DNA from: Simplicispira hankyongi | Lineage (GTDB): Bacteria; Pseudomonadota; Gammaproteobacteria; Burkholderiales; Burkholderiaceae_C | Reading direction: 5' to 3' | Assembly: GCF_003570885.1 (NCBI RefSeq) | Contig: NZ_QXJC01000001.1 | Location: forward strand, 1,116,001 to 1,180,000 | DNA: 64,000 nucleotides | Shown here: one piece after another, positions 1 to 55,284 of the stretch | How positions within the stretch are numbered: position 1 is the first letter of the stretch | How the letters are laid out: each line of letters begins with the position of its first letter | Notes under the pieces: generated by a model | Database searches by the model: none | Told to the model about the DNA's origin: nothing | The model's input: only the letters and a program-made list of their open reading frames with translations | Made by a program: the position numbers and the translations under genes

Positions 1-2218
1 CCACCTCGCTGAGCACCTGATCGACAAACCCTGCATGGCGGAACTGGCGGGCGCTCACATTGACCGACAGTTGCAGCTTTTCGCAGCGTGGGTCTTGCTG
101 CCACTGGGCCAACTGCACACAGGCCGTGCGCAGCACCCAGTTGCCGATCAACACGATGAGATCGCTTTCTTCAGCAGCCGCAATAAAGGCGGCGGGCGGC
201 ACCAGTCCACGCTCTGGGTGTTGCCAGCGCAGCAGTGCCTCGGCGCCCACCATGCTGCCATCGTACGCAAACTGAGGCTGGTAATAAAGCAGGAACTCGG
301 CATTGCGCAGCGCCGATTTCAGGTCGGTTTCCAATTGCGCCCGGTTGCTGATCGCCGTTTGCATTTGCGGGTCGAAAAAGCACAGCCCATTGCCATGGCG
401 TGCCTTGACCTGGTACATCGCGATATCCGCCTGGCGCAGAAGTTCGGCTGCCGCCTGGGGCACCTGACCAAACAGCGTGGCGCCCAGGCTGGCAGTGATC
501 TGGTGTGCATGCTCCCCCAACGCATAAGGCTGCTCAAGACTGCACAACAGCTTTTCAGACACACGCTGGGCCTGGGCAGCGGCCTCCACCGCAGCACCAG
601 AGAGGTCATTGAGCATGATCACGAATTCGTCTCCGCCCAGGCGCGCGACGGTATCTGCGCCCCGCACGCCATCGCGCAGCCGACGCGCCACCTGCTGCAG
701 CAAGGCATCACCCATGTCATGCCCCAGCGTATCGTTAATGGTCTTGAACTGGTCCAGGTCCAGAAACAGCAGCGCACCGAGTTGACTGGAGCGCTGCGCA
801 CGCTCGGTCGCCTGGCCCAAACGGTCCAGCAGCAGGCGGCGGTTGGGAAGCCCGGTCAGTGGATCGTAGAACGCAAGCGTCTCGATTTCGGCCTGCGCAC
901 GCAGCACGTCGGTCACGTCGCTGTAGGTGATCACCATGCCGCCGTCGGGCGTGCGGTGCTCCATGATTTGGAGCGTCCTGCCATTGGGCAAGACCTGCTC
1001 ATGCGGCCCAACCGAGTTCTTTTGTGCCGCCAGGCGTTTGTCTATCCAGGCGCTGCGTTCGGCTTCGCTCGCCTGCGGCAGGTGGTGCGATACGGTCGCC
1101 TCAAGCACCTTGCGGAACGGCAGTTGCGGCGCCATGACACCGGCAATCCAGGGAAATATTTCGTCGAAGCGCTGATTCCAATGCACCACCCGGTGCTCGC
1201 TGTCGAGCAACACGAAGCCGCTGGTCATGGCTTCGAGTGCCTGGTCGAGCTGCACTTTCGACTCTGCAAGCGCGTGGCGTGCCTGGCCAATGCGGTGCAG
1301 GTGCGCGGTAAACATATAGGCGGCAGCCAGGCACATCAGCGCAAATACGGCACTGACGACCGCCACGGCCTGGGCGTCATCACGCCAGGATTCCAACGCA
1401 GCACGCTCGGACAGGCTGGCGGATATCCACAGGTCGTCGTAGATCAGCGAGCGCGCCACCACCCGGCCCGGGGCACCGGTCAGCCGTGTCGGCATGTCCC
1501 AGGTCGGCGGCGCGGCGGGCACTTGCCGCAATGGCGCCAGCGCAGGCGCAGCAGCACCGCTGGCGGGCAGGGTGAACATACGCCTGCCGTCTCCCATTTC
1601 AAGAACGACCTCCAGACCCGGAATCTGCGCGTCCTGCGCCAGCACCGAGGCCAGCATGGCAACGGGCACTTCGGCGACGGCCACTAACCGCTCGCCGCTG
1701 CGCGTATGCAGATGGCGTGCCAGGAATATGACGTCCTCCGAACTGGCGAAACTGCGGACCGGGCCGCTGAGCACCACCACAGCCACGGCCGGCGCCAGCG
1801 CCTGTTGCACAAAACCCTCGGGCAGTTGCAACTGCACCCTTGCCCCACGTGGATCGGAGGAGGCCAGCACCTGCCCCTTGGCATCGAGCACGGCCAACAG
1901 CCGCACGCTCAGATTGGGCCGCGTGGTGCGCGCCAGCATGGCGCTGGCGGCCTCGGGGGGCACGCCATTGGTGGTAGCGTCGTCCAAGCCAAGCACCTCA
2001 CCCACACTGGCGAGCAAGATGTCGACGCCCAAAAATGCCCGATTGAGTGCCGCCTGGGCACCAGAGACGTAGCGGACCAGCTCGTGATCGGCTACTTCAA
2101 GCGCCGTGTTGCGGGTGGAGAGAATCTGCGCCGCCGCGACCAACAAGATCGCGCTGGCAAAAAAAACCACCACCGCCCAGACGGCCGACTGCGCACGTGC
2201 GGGCAGCGCCGGCTTCAT
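1..2218 (-). CDS. GGDEF/EAL cyclic-di-GMP enzyme with PAS domain (3' end outside window)
   Basis: Inner-membrane signalling protein that should make and/or break c-di-GMP. About 739 residues are visible before the window edge cuts the EAL domain. In order: a membrane segment near residues 10-30, an extracytoplasmic sensor of about 250 residues, a second membrane segment near 285-305, a PAS-like region from about 330, then a GGDEF domain with an intact GGDEF at 528-532. RGAD at 519-522 sits where the inhibitory RxxD site lies in active cyclases, so product inhibition is likely. The EAL domain opens with EALLRW at about 660, followed by a VNVSARQF segment. The ATG overlaps the stop of the upstream binding-protein gene (ATGA), so the two are translationally coupled. 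Whether the EAL half is catalytic cannot be judged from what is visible. Confidence 0.93.
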   Translation of the reverse strand, partial: MKPALPARAQSAVWAVVVFFASAILLVAAAQILSTRNTALEVADHELVRYVSGAQAALNRAFLGVDILLASVGEVLGLDDATTNGVPPEAASAMLARTTRPNLSVRLLAVLDAKGQVLASSDPRGARVQLQLPEGFVQQALAPAVAVVVLSGPVRSFASSEDVIFLARHLHTRSGERLVAVAEVPVAMLASVLAQDAQIPGLEVVLEMGDGRRMFTLPASGAAAPALAPLRQVPAAPPTWDMPTRLTGAPGRVVARSLIYDDLWISASLSERAALESWRDDAQAVAVVSAVFALMCLAAAYMFTAHLHRIGQARHALAESKVQLDQALEAMTSGFVLLDSEHRVVHWNQRFDEIFPWIAGVMAPQLPFRKVLEATVSHHLPQASEAERSAWIDKRLAAQKNSVGPHEQVLPNGRTLQIMEHRTPDGGMVITYSDVTDVLRAQAEIETLAFYDPLTGLPNRRLLLDRLGQATERAQRSSQLGALLFLDLDQFKTINDTLGHDMGDALLQQVARRLRDGVRGADTVARLGGDEFVIMLNDLSGAAVEAAAQAQRVSEKLLCSLEQPYALGEHAHQITASLGATLFGQVPQAAAELLRQADIAMYQVKARHGNGLCFFDPQMQTAISNRAQLETDLKSALRNAEFLLYYQPQFAYDGSMVGAEALLRWQHPERGLVPPAAFIAAAEESDLIVLIGNWVLRTACVQLAQWQQDPRCEKLQLSVNVSARQFRHAGFVDQVLSEV

Positions 2219-3297
2219 GGCGAGTGCGCCGCCAGACCGGATACCCGACCAATGGTTTGGGACCAGACCTGCGCGCACTGCGGGCCACAGCGTTGCAGCC
2301 AACGGGGCAACACGGCACTGGTGAAGATTTCCCGGCTGCGCACGGTATCGGCCGCGCTTGCGGGCACGATGCGCATCTTGCCCGGCCGGCCGACCACACA
2401 ACCGGGTTTGCCACTGTTGCAGACCAGCCCCTGGGCGGTATCACGCTCGGATTCGGCCCAGACCGCCGCTTCAAGTTTCGGCAATTCCCTGCGCAGCAAG
2501 TCCTGCAAATCCATCGGCAAGGCCTGCCAGGCTGCCTGGTTGGCGCCAAAAATAGCCATGCCCCAATTCAGCGGCAAGGCATACAAATGGGTTGTCAATT
2601 CCGGTAGTCCGATGGTATTGCCCGACAGGGTGCCGGTGATCGCACAATCGAGCGCCCCGGCTTCAAAACGCGGCACAAGCTGCGCAAAGGCCGTGTGCAC
2701 CGGCTCGGCCCCCAGGGCTTCGACAAAATCTGCCTGTCCTACCGACGATACCCGCACGCGCCAGCCTTTCAAGTCGCTCAGACTGGCAATCGGTTTCTTG
2801 CAAAACAGCATTTGCGCCGGATAGACGTAGATGGCAAGGGCTTCTATCCCCTGCTCTTCGCGCAGCGCGCGCTCCAGATACGGCCGAAACGCGGCAAGAT
2901 GGGTCCGCAGCGTTGGCATGTCCGGATTCAAACCCACCAGATCAGGGGCCGCGTACTGCGGAAACGTGCCAACGAGAGAGCTCATGAGCACGGTGCCAAA
3001 CGGCACCACGCCCAGCTGCAAGAACCGCAGCATGTCGGCGCCCGGAAGGCCAGCGCGGTCAAACGGCACGATGTTGGCGCGGTACTTGCCCGCGCTCAAG
3101 CGCTCAAGCTCGCGCGACCAGAAGGGTTCTTCGAGTTTGGTGTACTGACTGGTGCCAGCCAACCCGCCCACCACACGCAGCGTCATCACAGGCCGGGTGG
3201 CAGTGGCGGCCGCGGCCTGCTGGGCCGATGCCCCCCGCGCCCACAGCAAGCCCTGGCACAGCACCAGCAGCAAGCAGAGTATTCGCAGAGGGCGCAT
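2215..3297 (-). CDS. TRAP-type (DctP-like) periplasmic solute-binding protein, orphan
   Basis: A 360-residue protein starting MRPLRILC with a Sec signal peptide ending near ASAQQ (about residue 25). The body has the DctP pattern: a segment reading LSDLKGWRVRV, then VGQADFVEALGAEPVHTAFAQ and LEAAVWAESERD. Two C-terminal Cys pairs are unusual. No DctQ or DctM permease gene is adjacent. Its stop codon overlaps the start of the GGDEF/EAL gene by 4 bp, so I infer that it senses a ligand for that enzyme rather than feeding a transporter. The longer upstream reading frame (to 3372) adds residues before the signal peptide and was rejected. Confidence 0.85.
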   Translation of the reverse strand: MRPLRILCLLLVLCQGLLWARGASAQQAAAATATRPVMTLRVVGGLAGTSQYTKLEEPFWSRELERLSAGKYRANIVPFDRAGLPGADMLRFLQLGVVPFGTVLMSSLVGTFPQYAAPDLVGLNPDMPTLRTHLAAFRPYLERALREEQGIEALAIYVYPAQMLFCKKPIASLSDLKGWRVRVSSVGQADFVEALGAEPVHTAFAQLVPRFEAGALDCAITGTLSGNTIGLPELTTHLYALPLNWGMAIFGANQAAWQALPMDLQDLLRRELPKLEAAVWAESERDTAQGLVCNSGKPGCVVGRPGKMRIVPASAADTVRSREIFTSAVLPRWLQRCGPQCAQVWSQTIGRVSGLAAHSP

Positions 3298-3420
3298 GGG
3301 ATGGGACAAGAGGCTCTCCACTTGCATTTCAAAGACATCGAAGGTGCACATTGGGCTCCAGCATCGGGCCATTCTGCACCACTGGCGGCTCCTGTCCAGA
3401 CAGGTGGACGGTGGTTTTTT

Positions 3421-4251
3421 TCAGAACGCCCCGGGGTACGCGCCCCCATCCACCAGCACGTTTTGTCCGGTCAGATAGCCCGCATGCACGCTGCACAGGA
3501 AGGCACAGATAGCGCCGAACTCGTCTGCCTGGCCAAAGCGCCCTGCGGGAATGCTGGCGCGCTGTGCCTGGCGCACCTCCTCTGTTGTTTTGCCGCTGCG
3601 CGCGGCGGCGCCGGCAAAGGTGGCGGCCAGCCGGTCGGTATCGAACTTGCCCGGCAGCAGGTTGTTGATGGTGACGCCATGCGCCGCCAGCGGGCTGCGC
3701 GCCACACCGGCCACAAAGCCCGTGAGCCCGCTGCGTGCGCCATTGGACAGGCCCAGAATATCAATGGGCGCCTTCACGGCGCTCGACGTGATGTTGACGA
3801 TGCGGCCAAAGCCGCGCTCGGCCATGCCATCCACGGCAGCGCGGATCAGCGCGATGGGGGCCAGCATGTTCGCGTCCAGGGCGGCGATCCAGGCGTCCCG
3901 GTCCCAATCGCGGAAATCACCCGGCGGCGGGCCGCCCGCATTGGTGACGACGATATCGAAATCCTTCCCCGGCCCGCCGGGGACCGAGAGCGCAGCCTCG
4001 CGGCCTGCCTCGGTGGTGATGTCCGCAGCCACCGTCAGCACCGAAATATTCGAGGGTTTTTGGCCTCCACCGCTTATACCGTCTCGATATTCAGCTTTCA
4101 ATTCAATAGCAACCTGTTGCAAGGTGGGCGCCCCCCTTGCATTGATCACCAGGTTGACGCCTTCGCGTGCCAGTGCCCGCGCGCAGCCCAGACCAAGACC
4201 CTTGCTCGCGCCACACACCAAGGCCCATTTGCCGGCAATACCCAAATCCAT
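3421..4251 (-). CDS. SDR-family oxidoreductase lacking the canonical Tyr/Lys
   Basis: A 276-residue Rossmann-fold short-chain dehydrogenase. The dinucleotide motif GASKGLG is at residues 14-20 and NAGG at 104-107, with the catalytic-region serines SS at 156-157. Where YxxxK is expected the sequence reads SNGAR (169-173), so Tyr is replaced by Ser and Lys by Arg. This resembles the BKR-like SDR subgroup known to deviate from the catalytic tetrad. Residues about 51-70 form an extra loop whose DNA matches the dispersed repeat described at 4057-4125. The C-terminus has the usual FLCSVHAGYLTGQ and VDGG segments. Substrate unknown; activity may be altered. Confidence 0.88.
   Translation of the reverse strand: MDLGIAGKWALVCGASKGLGLGCARALAREGVNLVINARGAPTLQQVAIELKAEYRDGISGGGQKPSNISVLTVAADITTEAGREAALSVPGGPGKDFDIVVTNAGGPPPGDFRDWDRDAWIAALDANMLAPIALIRAAVDGMAERGFGRIVNITSSAVKAPIDILGLSNGARSGLTGFVAGVARSPLAAHGVTINNLLPGKFDTDRLAATFAGAAARSGKTTEEVRQAQRASIPAGRFGQADEFGAICAFLCSVHAGYLTGQNVLVDGGAYPGAF
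4057..4125 (-). repeat. Dispersed repeat copy 1, embedded in the SDR gene
   Basis: On the minus strand the segment contains ATAAGCGGTGGAGGCCAAAA, close to the second half of the family consensus (TAAGCGCTAGAGGCCAAAAA). It is preceded by a diverged AGCTG half. It is visibly AT-richer than the flanking coding sequence and stays in frame, encoding the extra loop of the SDR. This is the most diverged copy of the family. Confidence 0.55.
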
Positions 4252-4307
4252 AACAATCCCCTCGCTCCACCATCCGTGGCGCCAACGCATGATAAGGGGA
4301 CTGTTTG

Positions 4308-4913
4308 ATGAAACCCGGACCGATCTCGCGCGCCCTGCTGGCGGCAGCCATTGCGGGCGCTGCACTGGCCTTGCCAGCCCACGCCCAGCAGGACGCCTCC
4401 GTGATCCAGCGCGCCACCGAGCTGCGCGACGCACCCGGCACCACCGGCGCCAGCCTGGGCGCATTGGCGGCTGACAGCCCGGTGGAGCGCACCGGTGAAC
4501 GCAAGGGCTCATGGATCAAGGTGCGCACGCCGCAGGGCACTGTCGGCTGGGTGCCCATGTTTGACGTGGGCACGCGCGCCAGCGCGGCGCCCGCATCCGG
4601 CAATGCCGCGACCAACGGCTTGCGCAGCCTGGGCAGTCTGTTTGGCGGCAACACGGGCACGACCACGGCCACCTCCACCGCGGGCATCCGGGGGCTGGAT
4701 GCCGAGGACATTGCCAATGCGCAGCCCAATCCTGCCGCCGTCACTCAGGCAGAGCAGCAGCGCGTGAATGCAGAACAGGCCAGGCGTTTCGCCGGTGCCG
4801 CCTCACTGCAGGCGCACCAGGTCGCGGCATTGCCTGAGCCCGCGCCTCCCGCCTCCACATCGGCGCCTGCTGGCCGCATCAGCCCGATGAACGAAAACAT
4901 CAGTCCCAACTGA
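4308..4913 (+). CDS. Secreted SH3-domain protein
   Basis: A 201-residue exported protein: signal peptide with cleavage near AHAQQ (about residue 25), then a bacterial SH3-like fold (LRDAPGTTGASLGALAAD, SWIKVRTPQGTVGWVPMF, residues about 35-85). A low-complexity Ala/Thr/Pro tail follows. SH3b modules usually bind peptidoglycan. The start ATG at 4308 follows AAGGGGA at good spacing. It lies 10 bp upstream of the M48 protease gene in what is probably an operon, so the two may act together in the periplasm. Confidence 0.82.
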   Translation: MKPGPISRALLAAAIAGAALALPAHAQQDASVIQRATELRDAPGTTGASLGALAADSPVERTGERKGSWIKVRTPQGTVGWVPMFDVGTRASAAPASGNAATNGLRSLGSLFGGNTGTTTATSTAGIRGLDAEDIANAQPNPAAVTQAEQQRVNAEQARRFAGAASLQAHQVAALPEPAPPASTSAPAGRISPMNENISPN

Positions 4914-4923
4914 AGGGGGTGCC

Positions 4924-5961
4924 ATGCACACGATTCAAATTCCACGTGCCGCGCTCCAGCCCATGATCCGGGCGGCGATCGCCTGCGCCGCCCTGGCGCT
5001 GATGCCTGCCCTGGTCCAGGCGCAGGATGTGATGAACCTGCTCAACTCGCTGGGCAGCCGGGCGGGAAGCGCATCGCCAGGCAACCTGCTGGGTACTTTG
5101 ACGGGCAACAACGCTGCCCCTGCCGCCAGCCAGGGCGACGACCTGATGGGCCTGCTCAGCCGCTCGGTGGAGACCATCGACGAGCCGCATGAAATCGACA
5201 TCGGCCGCCAGCTCGCCGCGGTGCTGCTGGGCAGCAAGCCGCTCTACCCCGATGAGCGGCTGCAGCGCTATGTCAACCGACTGGGCCGCTGGATCAGCCT
5301 GCAGTCCGAGCGCCCCAACCTGCCCTGGACCTTCGTGGTGCTGGACGACACCGGCTACAACGCCTTTGCGGCGCCGGGCGGCTATGTGTTCGTCACCAAG
5401 GGGCTGATCGACCGCTGCGCCGACGAATCCGAGCTCGCCGGCATCCTGGCCCATGAAATCACCCACGTCACCCAACGCCACCATTTGCAGGCCATGCGCA
5501 AGACAGCGCAATCGGGCATGCTGACGCAACTCGTGGCCTCGCAGATTCACACCAATGGCGTGGGCAATCTGGTGGCGTCGCAAATCCTGGCGCTCGGGCG
5601 CAACCTGTATGCGCGCGGCCTGGACCAAAGCGACGAGTTCGAAGCCGACCGCCGCGGCGTGGCCCTGGCCGCGCGCAGCGGTTTCGACCCCTACGGCCTT
5701 CCCGCTGCACTGCAGGTGCTGCGCGCCGCAGCGCCAGGCAACCCCCAGTTCACGTTGGCGCTGGCGACACACCCGCCAGCCGAGCAGCGCTTGGACCAGC
5801 TCCAGCAGGCCATGGGCAACCGGCTCGATGGCCTGAGCGGCGCCGCGCCGGTCACCATTGCGCAGCGCCTGCAAGGGGGCGCCAGCGCCGCGCCGGCAGT
5901 GGCCGCTGCCGTGGCTCCGGCAACCGACGCCAAGCCGGCCAAACGGCACAAGAAGAAATAG
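4924..5961 (+). CDS. Periplasmic M48-family zinc metalloprotease
   Basis: A 345-residue exported peptidase related to BepA/LoiP-type envelope quality-control proteases. A signal peptide spans about residues 1-34. The zinc motif HEITH is at 177-181, and the third ligand region DEFEADRRG is near residue 240. The C-terminus is Lys-rich (KRHKKK) after an Ala-rich linker. The ribosome-binding site AAGGGGG precedes the ATG. Cotranscription with the SH3 protein is likely from the 10-bp gap. Substrate specificity is not readable. Confidence 0.9.
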   Translation: MHTIQIPRAALQPMIRAAIACAALALMPALVQAQDVMNLLNSLGSRAGSASPGNLLGTLTGNNAAPAASQGDDLMGLLSRSVETIDEPHEIDIGRQLAAVLLGSKPLYPDERLQRYVNRLGRWISLQSERPNLPWTFVVLDDTGYNAFAAPGGYVFVTKGLIDRCADESELAGILAHEITHVTQRHHLQAMRKTAQSGMLTQLVASQIHTNGVGNLVASQILALGRNLYARGLDQSDEFEADRRGVALAARSGFDPYGLPAALQVLRAAAPGNPQFTLALATHPPAEQRLDQLQQAMGNRLDGLSGAAPVTIAQRLQGGASAAPAVAAAVAPATDAKPAKRHKKK

Positions 5962-52457: not shown

Positions 52458-53441
52458 ATGAAGCGTAGAACCCTTTCCACCGCCGTGCTAGGCCTTGCGC
52501 TGGCCGGTGGCCTGGCCTGTGTCCCCGCAGCAGCACAAACCGCCTGGGACCTGGCCGCCGCCTACCCGGCCAGCAACTTCCACACGCAGAACCTGGCCCA
52601 GTTCACGGCCGACGTGGACAAGGCCACGGGCGGCGCGTTCAAGATCACGCTGCACGCCAACGCCTCGCTGTTCAAGGCGCCGGAAATCAAGCGCGCGGTA
52701 CAAGGCGGGCAGGCGCAGATCGGTGAGATCATTTTTGCCAACTTCCAGAACGAATGGCAGATTTTCGGCGCCGATGGCCAGCCCTTCCTGGCCACCAGTT
52801 TTGCCGATGCCAGAAAGCTCTACGAAGCGCAAAAACCGCTGCTGGACAAGAAATTCGCCGAGCAGGGCATGATGATGCTGTACTCGGTCCCCTGGCCGCC
52901 CCAGGGCCTGTACACCAAGAAACCCATTGAGTCCGCCGCCGACTTGAAGGGCATCAAGTGGCGCGCTTACAGCCCCGCCACCGCACGCATTGCCGAACTG
53001 GTCGGCGCCCAGCCCGTGACGGTGCAGGCAGCCGAGTTCTCGCAGGCCCTCGCCACCGGCGTGGTCGAGGCGACCATGACGTCGGGCGCCACTGGCGTGG
53101 ACAGCAAACTCTACGAGCAGCTCAAGTACTACTATGACCTGCAGGCCTGGTTGCCCAAGAATGCCGTCATCGTGAACAAAAAGGCGTTCGACGGCCTGAG
53201 CAAAGGCAACCAGGAAGCCCTGCTGAAAGCCGGCAAGGAGGCCGAAACACGCGGCTGGGCAGCGGCCGAGAAGGTCAACACCGAGACGCTGGCCACGCTC
53301 AAGGCGCACGGCATGCAGGTGCTGCCGCCCTCGCCCCAGCTCAAGGCCGACATGGCCAAGGTGGGCGAGACCATGCTCAAGGAATGGCTGGACAAGGCCG
53401 GCCCCGACGGCAAGGCGCTGATCGACGCCTACCGCAAGTAA
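52458..53441 (+). CDS. dctP: TRAP transporter substrate-binding protein DctP
   Basis: A 327-residue periplasmic binding protein: signal peptide ending near AAAQT (about residue 27), then DctP-family sequence (HANASLFKAPEIKRAVQGGQAQIGE near 70-94; SAADLKGIKWRAYSPATARIAELVGAQPV near 160-188 carrying the carboxylate-binding Arg). Substrate probably a carboxylate; from the adjacent hydantoinase I infer pyroglutamate or a hydantoin-related acid. Start ATG 52458 after a GGAGCG stretch. First gene of dctPQM. Confidence 0.92.
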   Translation: MKRRTLSTAVLGLALAGGLACVPAAAQTAWDLAAAYPASNFHTQNLAQFTADVDKATGGAFKITLHANASLFKAPEIKRAVQGGQAQIGEIIFANFQNEWQIFGADGQPFLATSFADARKLYEAQKPLLDKKFAEQGMMMLYSVPWPPQGLYTKKPIESAADLKGIKWRAYSPATARIAELVGAQPVTVQAAEFSQALATGVVEATMTSGATGVDSKLYEQLKYYYDLQAWLPKNAVIVNKKAFDGLSKGNQEALLKAGKEAETRGWAAAEKVNTETLATLKAHGMQVLPPSPQLKADMAKVGETMLKEWLDKAGPDGKALIDAYRK

Positions 53442-53456
53442 GCCCGCGCCCGACCG

Positions 53457-53966
53457 ATGCGCCGCTTGCTTGATGGCCTCTACACCGGCGCTGCGGCGCT
53501 GGCAGCCCTGTGCATGGTCGTGCTCCTGGCATGCGTGCTGCTTTCCATTGCCAGCCGGCAGCTGCATTTCATGGTGCAGGGGCTGGACGCCTACGCCGGC
53601 TACCTGATGGCGGCGGCGGGGTTTCTGGCACTGGCACACACCTTGAAGCGCGGCGAGCACATTCGCGTCACGCTGGTGCTCAACCTGCTACAGGGCCGCT
53701 GGAAAAAAGGCGCCGAGCTGTGGGCGCTTGGCGCCGCCACACTGCTGGCGCTGCTGTTCGCCTTCTACAGCTGCAAGCTCGCCTGGCAATCGCACGTGTT
53801 CAACGACATCTCTACCGGCAACGACGCCACGCCCCTGTGGCTGCCGCAAATTGCCATGGCGCTGGGCACGGTGGTGCTGGCCATCGCCTTTGTCGATGAA
53901 CTGGTGCTCGAAATCTTGGGCCGGCGCGTGCCGGCGCAAAGCAGCGAAGCGCTGCGCAACGAATAG
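53457..53966 (+). CDS. dctQ: TRAP transporter small permease DctQ
   Basis: A 169-residue membrane protein with four helices; GLDAYAGYLMAAAGFLALAHTLKRGEHIRV (near residues 42-71) is the DctQ pattern. It forms the membrane complex with DctM. It starts 15 bp after dctP and ends 13 bp before dctM. Confidence 0.9.
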   Translation: MRRLLDGLYTGAAALAALCMVVLLACVLLSIASRQLHFMVQGLDAYAGYLMAAAGFLALAHTLKRGEHIRVTLVLNLLQGRWKKGAELWALGAATLLALLFAFYSCKLAWQSHVFNDISTGNDATPLWLPQIAMALGTVVLAIAFVDELVLEILGRRVPAQSSEALRNE

Positions 53967-53979
53967 GCCCCGCGACACC

Positions 53980-55284
53980 ATGAGCGACATTGCCATCACC
54001 GGTCTGCTGATCGCCACGCTGTTCCTCATCCTGGGCAGCGGGGTGTGGATCGGGCTCACGCTCTCCGGCGTGGCCTGGATCGGCATGCAGCTGTTTTCGT
54101 CCCGTCCCGCGGGTGACGCCATGGCGGTCACGATCTGGGGTTCGTCGTCAAGCTGGACGCTGACCGCGCTGCCACTGTTCATCTGGATGGGCGAAATTCT
54201 GTTTCGCACCCGGCTCTCGCAGGACATGTTCAAAGGCCTGGCGCCCTGGGTGCAGGCATTGCCGGGGCGGCTTCTGCACACCAACGTGATCGGCTGCACC
54301 ATCTTCGCCGCCGTGTCGGGTTCAAGTGCGGCCACCTGCGCGACGATTGGCAAGATGACGCTACCGGAACTCACCCGCCGTGGCTACCCCGAGCACATGG
54401 TGGTCGGCACGCTGGCCGGGGCCAGTACCCTGGGGCTTCTCATTCCGCCTTCCATCATCATGATCGTCTACGGCGTGGCGGCGGACGTGTCGATCTCGCA
54501 GCTCTTCATTGCCGGGGTACTCCCGGGCATCCTGCTGGCGACGCTGTTTTCGGGCTACATCGCTCTGTGGGCGCTGCGCCACCCGGACCAGATTCCCCAA
54601 GCGGACGAGCGCCTGTCGCTTATGCAAAAGCTGTCGGCGTCGCGCAGCCTGATTCCGGTGGTGCTGCTGATTGCCGCGGTGCTGGGCAGCATCTACACCG
54701 GCTTTGCCACCGCCACGGAAGCCGCGGCCGTGGGCGTGACCGGAGCGCTCATCCTCTCGTCGCTGCAGGGCTCCATGAGCTGGCAGACCTTCCAGGACGC
54801 ACTGATGGGCGCCACGCGCCTGTACTGCATGATTGGGCTGATCCTCGCGGGTGCGGCCTTCCTCACGCTGTCCATGGGCTACATCGGCCTGCCGCGCCAC
54901 CTGGCCGAATGGATTACCTCGCTGGGCTTGAACCAGGCCCAGCTCGTCGCAGCGCTGGCGTTGTTTTACATTGTGCTGGGCTGCTTTCTCGACGGCATCT
55001 CCATGGTGGTGCTGACCATGGGGGTGCTGATGCCCACGGTCCAGGCAGCGCACATTGACCCGCTGTGGTTTGGCGTGTTCGTGGTGCTGGTAGTCGAAAT
55101 GGCGCAGATCACACCACCCGTGGGTTTCAATCTGTTTGTGCTGCAAGGCATGACCGGGCGCCAGCTTCCCTGGATCGCCCGTGTGACGCTGCCCATGTTT
55201 TTGCTGATGTGCGTGGCGGTGGCGCTGATTTACGTGTTCCCCGGCATCGTCACCTGGCTGCCCCAGCAGATGAGCGGACATTGA
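53980..55284 (+). CDS. dctM: TRAP transporter large permease DctM
   Basis: A 434-residue permease with about 12 membrane helices. Diagnostic segments are NVIGCTIFAAVSGSSAATCATIGKMTLPE (near residues 105-133), STLGLLIPPSIIMIVYGV (near 150) and DGISMVVLTMGVLMP near 335. It transports the DctP ligand with Na+. Start ATG 53980; the frame upstream is the overlapping dctQ reading. Confidence 0.94.
   Translation: MSDIAITGLLIATLFLILGSGVWIGLTLSGVAWIGMQLFSSRPAGDAMAVTIWGSSSSWTLTALPLFIWMGEILFRTRLSQDMFKGLAPWVQALPGRLLHTNVIGCTIFAAVSGSSAATCATIGKMTLPELTRRGYPEHMVVGTLAGASTLGLLIPPSIIMIVYGVAADVSISQLFIAGVLPGILLATLFSGYIALWALRHPDQIPQADERLSLMQKLSASRSLIPVVLLIAAVLGSIYTGFATATEAAAVGVTGALILSSLQGSMSWQTFQDALMGATRLYCMIGLILAGAAFLTLSMGYIGLPRHLAEWITSLGLNQAQLVAALALFYIVLGCFLDGISMVVLTMGVLMPTVQAAHIDPLWFGVFVVLVVEMAQITPPVGFNLFVLQGMTGRQLPWIARVTLPMFLLMCVAVALIYVFPGIVTWLPQQMSGH

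Follow-up and report, generated by a model that had tools for sequence, protein, structure and literature searches.

A TRAP-type binding protein gene without permease partners next to a membrane GGDEF-EAL receptor gene: a candidate two-gene sensor in Simplicispira hankyongi and its relatives

Introduction

Here, we analyse a stretch of 64,000 nucleotides from the genome of Simplicispira hankyongi (assembly GCF_003570885.1, contig NZ_QXJC01000001.1, positions 1,116,001 to 1,180,000 of the forward strand), which we call the window. At one of its ends a gene for a TRAP-type solute-binding protein, dctP, overlaps a gene for a membrane receptor with GGDEF and EAL domains, i.e., a putative enzyme of cyclic di-GMP (c-di-GMP) turnover. 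We consider it quite likely that the two products act together as one sensor, a split receptor that is gated by its binding protein.

Related arrangements are known. LuxP-LuxQ and TorT-TorS are two-gene sensors, each made of a periplasmic binding protein and a membrane-bound hybrid histidine kinase. This is the layout of the kinase-bearing relatives described below, in which the binding protein is a DctP, whereas the receptor in the window is a c-di-GMP enzyme and not a hybrid kinase. NspS, in turn, binds polyamines and is a periplasmic binding protein tied to the ligands of an ATP-binding cassette (ABC) type uptake system; it is no TRAP protein.

According to passages of PMC8967002, the NspS-MbaA system of Vibrio cholerae, which is also found in Sinorhizobium meliloti, joins a transporter-less periplasmic binding protein to a membrane GGDEF-EAL enzyme, as does the pair in the window, and MbaA becomes a constitutive phosphodiesterase when NspS is missing. 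The same layout is observed here, with a binding-protein gene beside the gene for a membrane GGDEF-EAL protein that has a periplasmic part. The window pair is nevertheless not NspS-MbaA proper: DctP is the only Pfam family that its binding protein matches at E values up to 1, and its receptor carries GGDEF where MbaA, in the same passages, carries SGDEF. In Bordetella pertussis, as portions of PMC5812351 and PMC9602780 describe, BctC, a TctC-type binding protein of the tripartite transporters, signals to the membrane sensor kinase BctE. TctC is also the class of one of the exchanged inputs found in this study. BctC additionally serves the BctBA transporter and controls its expression, while the DctP of the window has no transporter partner. 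Finally, CdgH-type cyclases (excerpts of PMC5431781) use a binding-protein fold for sensing in c-di-GMP signalling, but as a domain fused into the enzyme rather than as a separate secreted protein.

Signalling from binding proteins to GGDEF-EAL enzymes (NspS-MbaA) and from binding proteins of secondary transporters to kinases (BctC-BctE) is already known. For a TRAP binding protein as the input to a c-di-GMP enzyme, no report was found in the open-licence literature that we searched, and SBP_bac_3 is the sole member of the binding-protein clan for which the relevant part of PMC8846402 names studies on c-di-GMP networks, as a domain within the enzymes.

Results

An orphan dctP gene overlapping a receptor gene

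The dctP gene (2215..3297, minus strand) encodes a family 7 solute-binding protein of 360 amino acids, identified from its open reading frame, its translation, Pfam and a structure model. The length is counted from the ATG at 3297; an in-frame ATG further upstream, at 3372, would give 385 amino acids. The product begins with a signal-peptide-like segment and matches Pfam DctP (PF03480) with 58.6 bits at a cut-off of 23.4. Its model (mean predicted local distance difference test score, pLDDT, 92.7) shows the fold of TRAP solute-binding proteins with 4n4u as the best match, and 2pfy and SiaP entries among the further ones. The codon of Arg182 (2752..2754, minus strand) aligns with the conserved arginine of this protein class, whose role in ligand binding is described in part of PMC5812351. 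This residue is invariant in the DctPs that adjoin receptors, hereafter sensor DctPs (32/32 and 45/45 in two alignments, 64/64 rows in a larger set), as well as in all 47 rows labelled DctM-linked and all 3 kinase-linked rows. Invariance in sensors and transport relatives alike indicates that the sensor DctPs lost their permease partner but not the ability to bind a ligand.

Six cysteines (positions 166, 218, 293, 300, 337 and 341) are likewise kept in 64/64 sensor rows and in 46-47 of the 47 transport-linked rows. Judged from these alignments, the window DctP and its relatives would form a TRAP subfamily rich in cysteines, which may form disulfides. A disulfide-like cysteine pattern was rejected as a hallmark of the sensor clade, because transport-linked relatives carry the cysteines too.

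The whole genome yields 14 DctP, 11 DctQ and 13 DctM matches, two of the latter being pieces of one frame. Thirteen of the DctP matches have a DctQ or DctM match no more than about 2.2 kb away, and the dctP described here is the only one without dctQM nearby. A TRAP transporter would be expected to have DctQ and DctM genes beside DctP, and none is present within about 50 kb: on the contig, the nearest matches end at 1039436 (about 76 kb from the pair) and start at 1169526 (about 50 kb). A dctQM pair just beyond the window, which the first-pass annotation had named as one of two findings that would refute its reading, is not there. Within 10 kb outside the window, the translations read as an EamA-like transporter, an oxidoreductase and arginine-synthesis genes. 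A full canonical TRAP set with DctP, DctQ and DctM matches does occur elsewhere in the window (52566-55248, plus strand).

The stop codon of dctP and the start codon of the receptor gene overlap in the sequence ATGA (2215..2218, minus strand). The receptor reading frame (1..2218, minus strand) encodes 879 amino acids, of which residues 1-739 fall into the window and the remainder extends to contig position 1115579 (G000:C1:1115579), so that its 3' end lies 421 bases outside window base 1. The extent of 1-3297 given in the first-pass annotation thus covers only part of the pair, the receptor being cut by the window edge.

The receptor is predicted by model and profile to start with a transmembrane helix, a double-Cache periplasmic domain and a second transmembrane helix (residues 1-325; 1244..2218, minus strand). 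The large extracytoplasmic region between the two long helices is modelled as a double Cache with a mean pLDDT of 89.0. Its best PDB match in Foldseek is 3lif (TMt 0.77), followed by other double-Cache domains, and a profile match to 3lif has an E value of 9.1e-6. The Pfam Cache model (dCache_1, PF02743) does not match the window receptor at its cut-off and gives sub-cut-off matches in two related loci (L092, L099; L and G numbers denote loci and genomes of our collection). A PAS_7 domain (residues 328-442; 893..1237, minus strand; 76.7 bits) is followed by GGDEF (residues 449-610; 389..874, minus strand; 159.7 bits) and EAL (residues 632-866; 242.5 bits), whose first part occupies 1..325 on the minus strand up to the window edge. 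The GGDEF motif occupies residues 528-532. The RxxD inhibitory-site motif, RGAD at residues 519-522 (653..664, minus strand), is located five residues ahead of it, and the EAL domain has its signature and metal-site motifs complete. Among 119 aligned receptors, the GGDEF motif is present in 117 and the EAL catalytic and metal-site motifs, where counted, in at least 116; RxxD occurs in all eight variants listed, which represent 70 of the 119 rows. All structural claims of the first-pass annotation, i.e., the lack of dctQM, the ATGA overlap, the membrane GGDEF/EAL protein with a large extracytoplasmic region and the intact RxxD site, are therefore borne out.

Seven receptors of the 80-locus set described below (L212, L222, L228, L231, L232, L237, L238) have about 760-767 amino acids instead of the usual 880-900 or so. 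The receptor of L155 ends inside GGDEF after 574 amino acids; it was counted as GGDEF-type and may be broken.

Distribution and phylogeny of the pair

Orthologues were counted above 50% identity and adjacency was taken from coordinates. On this basis, the dctP orthologue adjoins the receptor gene in 21 of the 26 genus genomes, the broken dctP of G003 included, and in 51 of a sample of 299 family genomes. The survey of genomes that had been proposed along with the pair thus answers the question of whether it is unique to this strain: it is not.

We further inspected the best 80 of at least 538 relatives, a set that is therefore biased to close ones and covers Acidovorax, Rhodoferax, Comamonas, Variovorax, Diaphorobacter, Rubrivivax and other genera. 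The receptor gene follows dctP in 79 of these 80 loci, and in the 80th the contig stops after 8 bases. DctM or DctQ was found in none of the 80. The overlap is exactly four bases in 59 of 78 pairs of this set and in 42 of 67 pairs of a second, 67-locus set; both sets share contigs (e.g., L239 = L157, L163 = L043), and their counts are not additive. The pair was also found on plasmids, and once, in L093, with reversed gene order.

In a tree of 122 DctPs (omitting L046, L057 and L134), the 64 sensor rows group in a single, fully supported clade (100) on a stem of 1.07. The tree carries support values of the Shimodaira-Hasegawa-like approximate likelihood ratio test only, is midpoint-rooted, has long branches among the outgroups taken from the own genome, and labels L269 as DctM-linked although no DctM is seen there before the contig ends. 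The clades next to the sensor DctPs are mostly transporter-linked, with three kinase-linked rows placed deeper. Paralogues within the family at 29-41% identity have DctM nearby in 30 of 30 cases. Among 20 relatives at the order level, 16 have DctM nearby, three are neighbours of a histidine kinase and one lies at a contig end. Receptor homologues seem confined to the family: 4 of 399 order genomes matched, all four from the window's own family, in a loose first look that scored five candidates per genome and may miss weak homologues. Aligned segments rather than full genes went into the genus profile.

Exchange of input and output modules

In 14 of the 67 loci a hybrid histidine kinase with HisKA, HATPase and receiver domains takes the place of GGDEF-EAL. 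These receptors keep the same front and PAS_7, and their kinase domains were confirmed with Pfam in 14 of 14 cases; in L093, PAS_7 stays below threshold. Two to three changes are needed to place the kinase label on the trees; outputs have thus been exchanged.

The input side was addressed by a search of the 299 family genomes with the receptor front (E < 1e-50), which returned 59 receptors of this clade in 54 genomes, besides two further weak matches. Upstream of the 59 receptors we found DctP in 52 cases, SBP_bac_1/8 in three (G252, G179, G079), TctC in two (G256, G089) and no binding-protein gene in two (G223, G288). The SBP_bac_1/8 genes overlap the receptor gene by four bases, as dctP does, and the TctC genes are located upstream without overlap. 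In the receptor tree (omitting L046, L057, L134 and L155, with L093 entered from its own coordinates), TctC-linked receptors are nested inside the DctP-linked ones (100/98) and SBP_bac-linked receptors inside the GGDEF-EAL clade (96/87), where their exact sister is weakly placed (91/35). Four of the swapped genomes (G179, G079, G256, G089) also retain a receptor copy linked to DctP. Most simply, then, a duplication came first and the binding protein was exchanged afterwards.

As a control, the 20 next-nearest double-Cache receptors of the family were selected, of which 18 were recovered and two dropped. None of the 18 has a binding-protein gene upstream by Pfam, with two of the 18 neighbours giving no Pfam match. 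In these genomes, linkage to a binding protein hence characterises this clade rather than Cache receptors in general.

One SBP_bac-receptor pair (L296:970-11137) is surrounded by PhaC, thiolase, carbonic-anhydrase and short-chain dehydrogenase genes, which looks like a polyhydroxybutyrate locus. There is no ABC permease among the five annotated neighbours of its receptor.

Discussion

Proposed mechanism and ligand

In the proposed mechanism, DctP would be exported and would close on a small organic acid bound in its cleft. The closed (or open) form would dock on the double-Cache periplasmic domain, and the second transmembrane helix and the PAS linker would relay the docking state to the balance of GGDEF cyclase and EAL phosphodiesterase. 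An external carboxylate would thereby change c-di-GMP, and hence attachment or motility. DctP, which lacks a permease partner, would have left transport, and the receptor front would serve as a modular socket whose input protein and output domain can both be exchanged. The gene pair, the domains with their intact motifs, the history of the clade and both swaps are observed directly; we infer the docking, the class of ligand and the direction of the response. As to the direction, we lean slightly, by analogy with MbaA, towards a receptor that alone would act mainly as a phosphodiesterase, with docking favouring the cyclase; receptors without dctP could then behave like MbaA without NspS.

A small carboxylate is suggested as the ligand class by Arg182, by the ligands known for the DctP family (parts of PMC9602780 and PMC5812351) and by the nearest structures, e.g., the pyroglutamate-binding DctP7. 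Amidase genes stand beside the closest transporter-linked relatives in two annotated loci (L107, L256) and an allantoinase gene beside a relative on one plasmid. We refrained from naming the ligand from these neighbours and the DctP7 structure, for which the evidence is too thin.

The exchange of binding proteins together with that of GGDEF-EAL for a kinase fits a sensor and not a transporter. The two-gene ligand sensor postulated in the first-pass annotation gains support from the spread of the pair and from these swaps, yet its output needs to be narrowed: in part of the family it is a phosphorelay, and reporting to c-di-GMP holds for the branch of the window only. On a narrow balance, we favour the view that this double-Cache receptor lineage of the Burkholderiaceae (in the GTDB sense) is a general socket into which any transport-type binding protein can be recruited, with DctP, SBP_bac_1/8 or TctC as inputs and c-di-GMP turnover or phosphorelay as outputs. 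Such a cassette may explain some orphan binding proteins. The signals for most c-di-GMP enzymes are unknown, and the ligand would be within reach of binding assays on a soluble, crystallisable protein. With its natural swaps of inputs and outputs and its losses of inputs, the family makes the communication of binding proteins with Cache receptors directly testable.

Alternative explanations

Several observations weigh against the proposed mechanism. In G014 (of the same genus), G223 and G288, the order of short-chain dehydrogenase (SDR) gene and receptor gene is kept without any detectable remnant of dctP. The dctP of G003 is chimeric, and that of G028 and G266 is split between frames, where a sequencing error is possible. 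Losses and broken genes together indicate that the receptor can be kept without DctP. Coevolution does not single out the interface: the partial correlation between DctP and the periplasmic domain, given the catalytic part, is 0.34, against 0.54 for DctP and the catalytic part given the periplasmic domain (L046, L057, L134, L135 and L155 omitted). With the catalytic control at the higher value, the mirror-tree test gave no tie specific to the interface. The ratio of periplasmic to catalytic divergence is the highest of the 59 receptors in G223 and G288 (3.08 and 3.07), but G014, which has lost dctP as well, shows no such acceleration in its periplasmic domain. Moreover, the two input swaps (three and two loci) each go back to one event within one genus, TctC and receptor genes lie without overlap, and L297, the one TctC locus with annotated neighbours, has a DctM gene about 3 kb upstream of its TctC gene. 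Since removal of NspS turns MbaA into a constitutive phosphodiesterase, the losses themselves do not contradict the partnership; neither do they support it.

These losses and the three broken genes are what one would expect if the double Cache bound a ligand of its own and signalled alone, with DctP as a dispensable loader or buffer or as a second input. Periplasmic Cache domains more commonly signal without the help of a binding protein, and the double-Cache domains of known structure among the fold-search hits are, by their titles, direct binders of small molecules. An independent receptor does not, however, account for an adjacent binding-protein gene of one of three classes in 57 of the 59 receptors as opposed to 0 of 18 outside the clade; the top divergence ratios of G223 and G288 look as if constraint had changed once dctP was lost, G014 again excepted. 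We regard this explanation as unlikely, though it deserves more weight than the other two. DctP might also still take part in transport through a DctQM encoded elsewhere, the adjacency then reflecting co-regulation. The genome holds 11 DctQ matches, and orphan binding proteins distant from their permeases occur in the TRAP and tripartite tricarboxylate transporter (TTT) families, as part of PMC5812351 states. Yet the other 13 DctPs have DctQM nearby, the closest paralogues do as well, the sensor loci examined do not, and a long stem sets the sensor clade apart, which makes this account very unlikely. Mere inheritance of an operon structure without joint function would agree with the broad likeness of DctP and receptor trees and with a coevolution signal that is not specific to the interface. 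We give it hardly any credence: the pair persists while its neighbours change, it stays together on plasmids and in reversed order (L093), and where dctP was replaced, other binding proteins took its place.

Neighbouring genes and further observations

The SDR gene is located upstream of dctP on the same strand (3421..4251, minus strand; assigned from Pfam matches of relatives in L293 and L299). Where upstream DNA is sufficient, an SDR gene precedes dctP in 38 of 71 loci of the 80-locus set and in 31 of 63 of the 67-locus set; with a presence in only about half of the loci, it was rejected as a third part of the system. A promoter scan gave a single weak site between SDR and dctP, which we did not use, and no RNA families were found in window positions 1-5000.

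In the locus with the chimeric dctP (L057 of G003), the N-terminal half of the gene is unrelated and by eye resembles spermidine synthase, while the downstream receptor frame is open. A plasmid of Variovorax paradoxus VAI-C (CP063167.1; L308:3019-8995) carries a run of three genes for a GGDEF protein, a TRAP binding protein and an EAL protein, with overlaps of a few bases in the outer pairs. In L311:4959-10199 (CP099603.1), dctP and an EAL receptor gene are followed by a TctC-type binding-protein gene. DctPs of 36-39% identity adjoin a long hybrid kinase in L258:5532-11764, L261:8231-12981 and L263:1-3696. This kinase comprises HAMP, HisKA, HATPase and receiver domains, and Hpt in two of the three; an amine oxidase gene adjoins in L261 and L263. 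In L258 and L261 the kinase is followed by a response regulator with receiver and GGDEF domains, and these relatives may represent a second, independent route from DctP to c-di-GMP.

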